Shown piece after piece: positions 505 through 4,720 of a DNA stretch of 64,000 nt. Within the stretch, counting starts at the first letter, position 1. Every line of letters begins with the position of its first letter. Position numbers and translations under genes: made by a program. This DNA is from Turicibacter bilis (lineage in GTDB: Bacteria > Bacillota_I > Bacilli_A > MOL361 > Turicibacteraceae). Below the pieces are notes generated by a model, which was not told where the DNA came from, searched no databases, and saw only the letters and a program-made list of their open reading frames with translations. The stretch is taken from contig NZ_CP071249.1 of the NCBI RefSeq assembly GCF_024499055.1, positions 310,001 to 374,000 of the forward strand. The letters run 5' to 3'.

Positions 505-533
505 GAATGATTTCGAATTTTGGACTCATACTA
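505..533 (+). promoter_or_regulatory. Sigma-G-type promoter of first SASP-like gene
   Basis: GAATG (505-509), a 17-nt spacer, then CATACTA (527-533). This matches the forespore sigma-G consensus (gMATR, N16-18, CATnMTA). The same two hexamer-like boxes with the same 17-nt spacing recur before the next small gene at 880-908. Confidence 0.7.
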
Positions 534-537
534 TTAC

Positions 538-554
538 TGTTGTTTAAGACAACA
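538..554 (+). promoter_or_regulatory. 5'-end stem-loop in leader of first SASP-like mRNA
   Basis: TGTTGT (538-543) and ACAACA (549-554) pair around a 5-nt loop, starting 4 nt after the -10 box, i.e. at or next to the transcript start. The paralogous gene has a different-sequence stem at the identical position (913-927), so the pairing rather than the sequence is kept. Likely an mRNA-stabilising 5' hairpin; function inferred. Confidence 0.55.
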
Positions 555-577
555 ATAAAGAAAGTGAGGAATTCAAA

Positions 578-763
578 ATGAAAAATAATAATAACAGCAA
601 CAATAAAAATCAAGCAAACTATAATGCAAATACAAATGCAAATGTAAATGCAAAATCTAACCGTAACAAATCTAATGCAAACACAAATGCTAATGTAGAG
701 TTTGCGACTGATTTTGCTACTTCAAACAATTGCAGAAACAATTCAAACAACAAAGAATGCTAG
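578..763 (+). CDS. Asn-rich small acid-soluble spore protein-like (gamma-type)
   Basis: A 61-aa protein made mostly of Asn, Lys and Ala (NANTNANVNAK type repeats). Its one distinctive segment, EFATDFATSNN, resembles the QFGTEFASETN cleavage-repeat of gamma-type small acid-soluble spore proteins (SspE), the site cut by the germination protease GPR. The ribosome site GAAAGTGAGG lies 8 nt before the ATG. A sigma-G-type promoter upstream independently supports forespore expression, and a terminator follows. The next gene encodes a second short protein with the same kind of motif. The role proposed is amino-acid storage in the spore; the assignment rests on a short motif plus promoter, so it is probable rather than certain. 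Confidence 0.65.
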   Translation: MKNNNNSNNKNQANYNANTNANVNAKSNRNKSNANTNANVEFATDFATSNNCRNNSNNKEC

Positions 764-794
764 TTTAAGCAATCCAAATCCTAAAATGTTGAAA

Positions 795-828
795 TAAAAA
801 AATCATGACAAATGTCATGATTTTTTTA
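795..828 (+). terminator. Intrinsic terminator after first SASP-like gene
   Basis: Stem AATCATGACA (801-810) / TGTCATGATT (813-822), followed by a T-run; preceded by an A-run, so it may act in both directions. Confidence 0.85.
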
Positions 829-879
829 TTTGTGATTGATTAATAGGAAAAAATAAGCTTTATAGGGTTGTTCTGACAC

Positions 880-908
880 GAATGATTCTAAGTCATTTTC
901 TCATACTA
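880..908 (+). promoter_or_regulatory. Sigma-G-type promoter of second SASP-like gene
   Basis: GAATG (880-884), 17-nt spacer, CATACTA (902-908): identical boxes and spacing to the promoter at 505-533. Confidence 0.7.
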
Positions 909-912
909 ATAG

Positions 913-927
913 TGTCGTTTTTCGACA
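913..927 (+). promoter_or_regulatory. 5'-end stem-loop in leader of second SASP-like mRNA
   Basis: TGTCG (913-917) / CGACA (923-927) with a 5-nt T loop, beginning 4 nt after the -10 box exactly as in the first gene. Followed directly by the same ribosome site GAAAGTGAGG (929-938), 8 nt before the ATG. Confidence 0.55.
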
Positions 928-946
928 AGAAAGTGAGGTTACGATT

Positions 947-1126
947 ATGAGTTGTAAATCTAAAGCAAAAGCAGCAAAAACAGAAACAAATAATCAATGG
1001 TGTGGTCAAGCAGCAATTGGAAATAGCAGTGATCATGTAGAAAAAACTGAATTTAGTAATGAGTGGGCGTCAACCAATAAATTAGCGACTCAAGAACATC
1101 CAAATAAAAACAAAAAAACTTACTAA
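947..1126 (+). CDS. Second small SASP-like spore protein
   Basis: A 59-aa ORF, MSCKSKAKAAKTETNNQ..., rich in Lys, Asn, Thr and Ala. It carries EFSNEWASTNK, aligning with EFATDFATSNN of the preceding gene and with the TEFASE-type GPR site of gamma SASPs. The ribosome site GAAAGTGAGG is placed 8 nt upstream, and promoter, 5' hairpin and leader length match the neighbour. It holds two cysteines, unusual for a SASP. Ends in KKTY, then a terminator. Most likely a diverged paralogue of the first gene expressed in the forespore; the function is inferred from motif and promoter. Confidence 0.6.
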   Translation: MSCKSKAKAAKTETNNQWCGQAAIGNSSDHVEKTEFSNEWASTNKLATQEHPNKNKKTY

Positions 1127-2314: not shown

Positions 2315-4447
2315 TTAGGCCCATCCAAATAAATGGAAAATCACAGTGGTAACAAAGCAGAGGGCAATCCCAATTAAAGTTGGAATGATAAACGCGAGGG
2401 CTGCCCATTTATAGCTTCCAGTTTCTTTTTTGATCGTCATTAATGTGGTCGAACAAGGCCAATGACATAAGGTAAACAGCATGACATTAAGTCCAGTTAA
2501 TAATGTCCATCCGTTATCTTTTAAGATTTGACTTAAAGTCGTGATACTATCAAATTCCACCATGGAACCACTTGATAGATACGCCATTAACAGAATAGGG
2601 ATAACGATTTCATTAGCAGGTAATCCAAGAATAAAAGCCATTAAAATGAAACCATCTAGTCCGATGAATTGGGCAAACGGATTTAAGAAATTGGCGATAT
2701 AAGTTAAAATGCTTAAGTCACCAATATAGAGATTGGCCATGCACCAAATGATAATTCCTGCAGGAACCGCAATCATGATGGCACGTCCTAACACGAAGAG
2801 GGTACGGTCAATAATCGATGTATAAAGGATGCGTCCTACTTGTGGGGTACGATATGGAGGAAGCTCAAGGGTAAAGGATGAGGGAACTCCTTTTAAAATG
2901 GTTTTAGATAACCCATAAGAAACAAGTAGCGTAATGATGACACCTAAAATAATAATTAAGCTTACGACAAGTGCGCTCATTAAACTGTTTTGAAAAGTGT
3001 TTAAGTTTAAGGTGAGTAGTAAGACACTTGCAATCGCGATAATAGTGGGAAATCGTCCATTGCAAATGACAAAGTTATTGGTTAAAATGGCAATCAATTT
3101 TTCTCGAGGGGATTCGATAATCCGACATCCAATAATTCCTGCTGCATTACATCCAAATCCCATACACATGGTTAAGCATTGTTTCCCATGAGCACAGGCT
3201 TTTTTAAATAAGTGATCGAGATTAAAGGCGACGCGAGGAAGGTAGCCTAAATCTTCGAGTAAAGTGAAGAGTGGGAAGAAAATAGCCATTGGTGGTAACA
3301 TGACAGAGACGACATTTGCTAAGGTTTGATAAACACCGGATAAAAGCATGTTATGAAGCCAAGTAGGTGTGTGAATCCAATCTAGGAATTGATCAATATA
3401 ACCTTCTACCCAAGAGAAAAAGTTAGCTAGTAGTTGGGATGGACCATTCGCACCTACGATGGTCAACCAAAAAATTACCAATAAAAGAAGAAGCATTAGT
3501 GGGATTCCGAACCATCTTGAAGTGATGACACGGTCAATTTTTAAATCGCGTTCGCGTGCGAGTTGCTTTTGATCAAGTGTATAAACATAATCGTTTTTGA
3601 TTTGTTCAGCTTTAGCATAACTAACTTCAGTTAAGTGATCACGAATTTGTTCCTTATTAAGAGGCAATGGGATGTGAGTAGCAATTTCAGTTAGGGATTG
3701 AGATTGTTCAGGGCTTAAATATTGATTCATAGATTGGTAGATGCTCTCATTACCATCCATGAGACGAAGGGCTAACCAGCGTGGATTAAGATTGGGGAAT
3801 TGCTTGTCAAGAAGCGGCATCAGTTCGTTCACATAAGCTTCAGTTTCCTGATTATAAAGCAGAGGTTGTTGATGAAAGTCATAGTTTTCATCAATGACTT
3901 GATCGATGGCAGCTTTTAGGTCATTGATTCCGACTCCGTTTCGAGCCGAGGTTAAAACAACTGGAATGCCTAAGTCTGCTTCAATTTCCGCTTTATTCAC
4001 GACAATTCCTTTTTTCTTTGCCTCATCGATTAAGTTAACACATAAAATCACACGATCAGTTAATTCCATAATTTGAAAGGCCAGATGAAGATTACGCTCT
4101 AAGGCAGTGGCGTCTGTGACCACAACGACGAGGTTGGGTTTTCCAAAGCAAATGAAATCACGAGCCACGATTTCTTCTTCTGAGGTCGCAAATAAAGAAT
4201 AGGTTCCAGGGAGATCCACTAAGACATAATCGTGGGTGGCTGTTTTAAACTCTCCGCGAGCATTGGTCACCGTTTTTCCTGGCCAGTTTCCGGTATGTTG
4301 ATGTAGTCCTGTTAACGTATTAAAGACTGTACTCTTTCCGGTATTCGGATTCCCAGCTAAGGCGATCACGAATTGGTCGTCTCGTCTATCAATATTAAAT
4401 AAATCTTGTAAAGCCTTCCTTTTAGTTGAACTATACGTCAATCCCAT
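2315..4447 (-). CDS. feoB: Ferrous iron transport protein B
   Basis: 710-aa membrane Fe2+ transporter. The N-terminal G domain has P-loop GNPNTGKST (about residues 32-40), G3 DLPGTYS and NLIDEA as G4, then the GDI helical region, and from about residue 310 a polytopic membrane part containing the two Gate regions (CGFGCNAAGI and the late HWPCSTTLMTIKKE block). Length is typical of Firmicute FeoB; the short C-terminal tail lacks the Cys/His-rich FeoC-like extension. Lies 17 nt downstream of feoA with its own ribosome site (AGGAGG just before the ATG at 4447). It imports ferrous iron under reducing conditions, fitting an anaerobic gut organism. Probably controlled by the palindromic sites upstream of feoA. 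Confidence 0.97.
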   Translation of the reverse strand: MGLTYSSTKRKALQDLFNIDRRDDQFVIALAGNPNTGKSTVFNTLTGLHQHTGNWPGKTVTNARGEFKTATHDYVLVDLPGTYSLFATSEEEIVARDFICFGKPNLVVVVTDATALERNLHLAFQIMELTDRVILCVNLIDEAKKKGIVVNKAEIEADLGIPVVLTSARNGVGINDLKAAIDQVIDENYDFHQQPLLYNQETEAYVNELMPLLDKQFPNLNPRWLALRLMDGNESIYQSMNQYLSPEQSQSLTEIATHIPLPLNKEQIRDHLTEVSYAKAEQIKNDYVYTLDQKQLARERDLKIDRVITSRWFGIPLMLLLLLVIFWLTIVGANGPSQLLANFFSWVEGYIDQFLDWIHTPTWLHNMLLSGVYQTLANVVSVMLPPMAIFFPLFTLLEDLGYLPRVAFNLDHLFKKACAHGKQCLTMCMGFGCNAAGIIGCRIIESPREKLIAILTNNFVICNGRFPTIIAIASVLLLTLNLNTFQNSLMSALVVSLIIILGVIITLLVSYGLSKTILKGVPSSFTLELPPYRTPQVGRILYTSIIDRTLFVLGRAIMIAVPAGIIIWCMANLYIGDLSILTYIANFLNPFAQFIGLDGFILMAFILGLPANEIVIPILLMAYLSSGSMVEFDSITTLSQILKDNGWTLLTGLNVMLFTLCHWPCSTTLMTIKKETGSYKWAALAFIIPTLIGIALCFVTTVIFHLFGWA

Positions 4448-4464
4448 TGAGTCATTCCTCCTTA

Positions 4465-4698
4465 TTAATCATGAATGGGTTTAACCATAATTAAACTTCC
4501 TTCCTCTTCTCGTAGTGCAATCATCGCTCCGCGAATGTTATAGACGGTAAGGTTGTTTTTAGGTCCTTTTTTAATGACATCGATTAAAGCACCAGTCGTA
4601 ATTCCTAATGCTAATAAACGTTCACGTAATAAGCCTGTTGCTGTGAGTTTTGTAACTTTAACTGTCGTTTGGCATTCAACTTCGTTTAATTTTTTCAT
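4465..4698 (-). CDS. feoA: Ferrous iron transport protein A
   Basis: A 77-aa SH3-like FeoA domain protein (ATGLLRERLLALGITTGALIDVIKKGPKNN... ends IMVKPIHD). FeoA is a small cytosolic partner that modulates FeoB. I place the start at the ATG at 4698 because GGAG on the minus strand sits 8 nt upstream; a GTG at 4707 is in frame but overlaps that ribosome site. First gene of feoAB. A TTAGC-N4-GCTAA palindrome lies 23 nt upstream of the start, where a repressor would block transcription. Confidence 0.93.
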   Translation of the reverse strand: MKKLNEVECQTTVKVTKLTATGLLRERLLALGITTGALIDVIKKGPKNNLTVYNIRGAMIALREEEGSLIMVKPIHD

Positions 4699-4720
4699 TA
4701 TCATCACTCCAATTAATATT

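Follow-up and report, generated by a model that had tools for sequence, protein, structure and literature searches.

A short hairpin at the predicted 5' end of putative sigma-G-dependent spore-type messages in Turicibacter

Results

Two neighboring small genes of Turicibacter bilis, located in the 64-kb stretch of DNA analyzed here (the window), each possess a sigma-G-type promoter that is followed at a fixed distance by a short hairpin and then by a Shine-Dalgarno region. The sequence and geometry of this arrangement, the conservation of the pairing and its recurrence on three gene families are established. The most likely role of the hairpin is that of a 5'-terminal stabilizer of forespore (sigma-G) mRNAs, a reading to which we give a probability of roughly 0.55 and under which the hairpin would fold in vivo and prolong the life of the message. 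The features of the two genes are as follows.

505-533, + strand: sigma-G-type promoter of gene 1, GAATG (505-509), N17, CATACTA (527-533); sequence and pattern search
538-554, + strand: hairpin 1, TGTTGT-TTAAG-ACAACA, 4 nt past CATACTA; sequence and folding
560-569, + strand: Shine-Dalgarno region GAAAGTGAGG of gene 1, followed by 8 nt and the ATG at 578; sequence
578-763, + strand: gene 1, 61-residue Asn-rich protein (25 Asn)
802-828, + strand: likely intrinsic terminator of gene 1, ATCATGAC-AAAT-GTCATGAT-T run; sequence
880-908, + strand: sigma-G-type promoter of gene 2, GAATG (880-884), N17, CATACTA (902-908); sequence and pattern search
913-927, + strand: hairpin 2, TGTCG-TTTTT-CGACA, 4 nt past CATACTA; sequence and folding
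929-938, + strand: Shine-Dalgarno region GAAAGTGAGG of gene 2, followed by 8 nt and the ATG at 947; sequence
947-1126, + strand: gene 2, 59-residue protein with two KTxxxNxWxSxN repeats
1142-1188, + strand: likely intrinsic terminator of gene 2, GACACAAAGCG..CGTTTTGTGTC-T7; sequence

Each gene is monocistronic: promoter, Shine-Dalgarno region and likely terminator are separate for the two, and a strict consensus terminator scan returned neither of the terminators. A preliminary description of this DNA had spoken of one exact cassette shared by both leaders. This holds for the spacing between promoter and hairpin (4 nt) and between ribosome-binding site and ATG (8 nt), but gene 1 has 5 nt between hairpin and GAAAGTGAGG and a stem of six pairs, gene 2 has 1 nt and five pairs, so that the cassette is not exact over the whole leader. 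Searches of Rfam gave no match above the gathering score for the leaders; the sole match, BSnc120 at 779-836, was rejected since it is below threshold and overlies the terminator of gene 1. Elsewhere in the window (2315-4707, - strand), Pfam matches identify the ferrous iron transport genes feoA-feoB.

Promoter elements and assignment to sigma-G

The pattern GAATG-N15-19-CATACTA was encountered twice in the 64-kb window, where 0.11 occurrences are expected. When the genome of 2,786,784 bases was searched for the combination CATACTA-N8-37-GAAAGTGAGG, only these two copies were obtained and the reversed-pattern control gave none; the combination of TTCGACAAG with GAAAGTGAGG marked no further genes. 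The spore-type promoter that had been suggested was confirmed in that sigma-G-type elements are present upstream of genes 1 and 2 and of their orthologues, as GAATG-N17-CATACTA and variants of it, including TCATA-N18-CATACTA in Niallia. Judging from these elements, the hairpin-led genes are probably controlled by sigma-G. In the literature searched, no mapped start sites or records of forespore expression came up for Turicibacter bilis. Like the sigma-G promoters of the Bacillus subtilis ssp genes, those studied here have elements of the GNATR-N17/18-CATNNTA type ahead of small spore-type genes, but the Turicibacter leaders additionally keep a fixed spacing to a hairpin that contains the predicted +1. 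To our knowledge, no such fixed spacing has been described for the sigma-G regulon.

Relatives of genes 1 and 2 and their leaders

Gene 2 is present in all five Turicibacter genomes searched (five species); wherever its locus was read, the neighboring gene is of the Amidase_6 type. A homologue (E = 5.9e-7) occurs in G006, a member of another genus of the Turicibacteraceae, and another one, with 47% identity and the same pair of KTxxxNxWxSxN repeats, in Niallia taxi. The latter is a protein of 43 residues (L085, 3001-3132) encoded behind TCATA-N18-CATACTA; its promoter is present and the hairpin is absent. As judged from their sequences, the KTxxxNxWxSxN proteins of Niallia taxi and Turicibacter represent an undescribed small spore-type family. 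Among eight genomes of the family, an orthologue of gene 1 (56 residues) was found only in G002, on reading its locus; a search with the gene 1 protein returned the own genome only, and beyond G002 no relative was detectable.

In all of these Turicibacter but one lineage, gene 2 is preceded by a stem of 5-6 bp at the same place. The hairpin reads TGTCG-TTATT-CGACA in G004 and TGTCGA-GAT-TCGACA in G002, where the -10 boxes of gene 2 were assigned by eye and are off consensus, and that of gene 1 in G002 reads GTCGA-CCAAT-TCGAC. The exception is formed by the near-identical G001 and G003, in which a weak GTC..GAC stem of only three pairs is left (MFE -1.6, z -0.13) and the 3' arm TTCGACA is unchanged despite the broken stem. 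At the same place, G006 carries a stem with no sequence likeness to those of Turicibacter: its CATACTA is followed by 5 nt and GCTAAG-C-CAA-GCGAT-TTG-A-CTTAGC, which forms nine pairs (MFE -8.6).

Conservation of pairing

It had been proposed that the pairing is kept while the letters change, and this was mostly borne out by a number of species and by all three families of hairpin-led genes. Taken alone, the two window leaders differ by one compensatory pair (C-G to U-A) and one added pair, and the stronger evidence for conserved pairing comes from the sequences of the relatives. Folding yielded an MFE of -5.2 kcal/mol (z -2.55) for hairpin 1 and of -5.3 (z -1.68) for hairpin 2; a stem of 5 bp with a loop of 3-7 nt begins at 0.9% of the window positions. 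In an alignment of nine leaders, standard pairs occupied 90.6% of the cells as compared to 82.2% in shuffles, with 3 of 500 shuffles reaching as high a value, and sliding the partner arm left 11-67% paired. Two pairs had changed on both sides (seven cells) and two were invariant, covariation being limited to two pairs because the Turicibacter stems are all TGTYG/CRACA-like. Single leaders were only modestly better than shuffles on folding, and likewise in a first shuffle test (P 0.01-0.4), which was weak in that G-U pairs and several offsets were allowed. For comparison, stems of 0, 0, 3 and 4 pairs (G-U allowed) were obtained for four further sigma-F/G-like leaders from this genome, and none of them beat the shuffles.

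The arms are separated by 5 or 7 nt, and in all four leaders with the 7-nt spacing a sixth pair is formed. If these cases were independent, the chance of this would be 0.27^4, or about 0.005, but the four leaders group two by two as orthologues or paralogues, and the data were already known when the test was devised. The constant compensation of the wider spacing by a sixth pair favors an RNA hairpin over a DNA site for a dimeric binding protein, in which the spacing would be fixed. Furthermore, the sixth base past the -10 box is a G located inside the stem in 10 of 10 leaders. We infer that this G is the +1 (G539 for gene 1 and G914 for gene 2) and, since it is always paired, that the mRNA probably starts within the helix. 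A stem with conserved pairing thus lies at the predicted 5' end, as in known 5'-terminal stabilizing stem-loops, although it is weak in G001 and G003.

A third target and the alpha/beta SASP leaders

A covariance model (R1) of the gene 1 and gene 2 leaders was searched over eight genomes and recovered all seven of its members at E<1e-8. Its weak matches included an unrelated gene, a one-domain DUF1540 gene of G002 with the leader CATACTA-TAAT-TGTTG-TTTAA-CAACA. A DUF1540 search provided the orthologues, which are preceded by TATACTA-TAAT-TGTTGTG-GTA-CACAACA in the own genome and by CAAACTA-TACT-TGTTGT-GTCAA-ACAACA in G004. The DUF1540 hairpins are found 4 nt past the -10 box in three species, at a locus distant from genes 1 and 2. 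In the stretches read, two-domain DUF1540 genes had no such hairpin leader. The linkers of the two-domain proteins (L142, L145, L147, L152) contain EFATEF/EFAEDF-like strings that resemble EFATDFA of gene 1 and the GPR site EIANEF of alpha/beta SASPs; a protease site shared by these three kinds of proteins is possible on the basis of these strings. Genes 1 and 2 themselves differ from DUF1540 (PF07561) genes in that they lack the domain.

When a second model (R2) was built from nine leaders, alpha/beta SASP promoters ranked directly below the training members in Turicibacter genomes, which may be explained by the promoter alone. Several alpha/beta SASP leaders contain TGTCA-GGAGG-TGACA 4 nt past CATATTA, with the Shine-Dalgarno sequence as the loop. 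Because the pairing is inconsistently kept, being lost in many copies, no hairpin is claimed for these genes. The Spo0A-box-like TTTGTCGAA lies inside the sigma-G spacer of many Turicibacter alpha/beta SASP promoters, including those of G001-G004, and was not seen in the leaders read from the sister-genus genomes G006 and G007. The own genome holds 51 copies of it, four of them within four of the seven SASP promoters:

G000:C1:2446783, 2447128, 2727574 and 2727967 (loci L068, L054): alpha/beta SASP promoters bearing TTTGTCGAA

At L054, L055 and L056, upstream of alpha/beta SASP genes with ..QMKYEIASEQGV, long inverted repeats overlap the promoter and their letters are species-specific (e.g., CATTAGAGTGTC/GACACTCTAATG and TCCATCGA/TCGATGGA).

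The encoded proteins

The two proteins had been likened to gamma-type SASPs. They resemble SspE (Pfam SASP_gamma) in being small, Asn-rich and endowed with an EF-containing string, but neither they nor their relatives gave any meaningful match in Pfam or NCBIfam even at E<=10, and the gamma-SASP label is therefore not accepted. No clear TEFASET repeats are apparent in them; single EF strings occur, VEFATDF in gene 1 and TEFSNEW in gene 2. Their EFxx(E/D)(F/W) form is similar to the GPR site EIANEF of alpha/beta SASPs from the same genome, a resemblance only. Outside Turicibacter, the EF of the 59-residue protein is missing from the G006 and Niallia homologues (KTATHNEWTSTH, KTATDNQWTSAN), and it is the KTxxxNxWxSxN repeat that these homologues conserve. 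No relatives were found among solved structures, nor were relatives of the Niallia protein found on plasmids or relatives of the gene 2 protein in phages.

Discussion

According to a review (PMC3997798), mRNAs of B. subtilis are stabilized by a hairpin situated at their 5' end or close to it, and the RNA pyrophosphohydrolase BsRppH requires at least two unpaired nucleotides there. A 5' end located within the stem would withhold such nucleotides from BsRppH, and for this reason protection of the 5' end is taken as the most likely role of the hairpin. In a small set of Turicibacteraceae sigma-G genes, the mRNA would begin at, or 1-3 nt from, the short hairpin, with 4-5 nt separating the stem from a -10 box of the CATACTA type, and with the G at base 6 serving as a base-paired +1. 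Neither the pyrophosphohydrolase nor the 5' exonuclease RNase J would have access to a 5' end closed by such a blunt or nearly blunt hairpin, and in the maturing forespore the protected short mRNAs might then persist for the time that mass synthesis of small spore proteins takes. The three-pair stem of G001 and G003, the invariant TTCGACA and the Niallia homologue that lacks the hairpin are points against this role. Stabilizing stem-loops of this kind head E. coli papA and other transcripts and the B. subtilis aprE leader (PMC3997798). Like them, the Turicibacter hairpin is a short stem-loop, predicted to lie at the very start of the mRNA and ahead of the ribosome-binding site, but it differs in that it recurs on several small spore-type genes with its distance to a sigma-G-type -10 box kept constant, and its description is based on sequence analysis. 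A broader version, in which a forespore-specific leader class of the Turicibacteraceae has sigma-G polymerase starting inside the first pairs of a blunt 5' hairpin, as a built-in cap for spore-protein messages, with an alpha/beta SASP variant carrying the Shine-Dalgarno sequence as the loop, is offered as a tentative suggestion.

The inverted repeat could alternatively act as duplex DNA, as an operator over the start site through which Spo0A or some other dimeric regulator keeps the genes off outside the forespore. The Spo0A box is TGTCGAA, and Spo0A comes into question as the regulator because TTCGACA resembles this box. Moreover, five species share an unaltered TTCGACAAG at gene 2, including those whose 5' arm has diverged, the spacing of TGTYG-N5-CRACA is like that of operator half-sites, and the presence of TTTGTCGAA in the spacer of alpha/beta SASP promoters would fit as well. 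We nevertheless consider an operator rather unlikely, given that the arm spacing varies by 2 bp with an extra pair compensating, that the leaders of window gene 1 and of the DUF1540 genes are devoid of a 0A box, and that the stem occupying this position in G006 is unrelated.

These different letters in the other genus also speak against a palindrome that is a functionless relic of one ancestral promoter region, and so does the hairpin that three species carry ahead of DUF1540 genes, far from genes 1 and 2. Shared descent would account for the adjacency of genes 1 and 2, for the likeness of their leaders (GAATGATT, CTCATACTA, GAAAGTGAGG) and for the weak stem of G001 and G003, but a relic of this kind seems unlikely. 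Finally, the hairpin might act on translation instead of mRNA decay, holding the ribosome-binding site open or serving as a timing element. The alpha/beta SASP leaders with the Shine-Dalgarno sequence in the loop are in agreement with such a role, which appears very unlikely since this sequence lies downstream of and outside the stem in the three hairpin-led families and since the pairing of the alpha/beta leaders is lost in many copies.

If protection of the 5' end is indeed the function of the hairpin, promoter architecture would be tied to mRNA longevity in the forespore, with the same small hairpin heading several spore messages through changes of sequence that preserve its pairing. This would offer a direct way to test how mRNAs for spore proteins outlast metabolic shutdown, in a common gut bacterium whose spore biology is little known.
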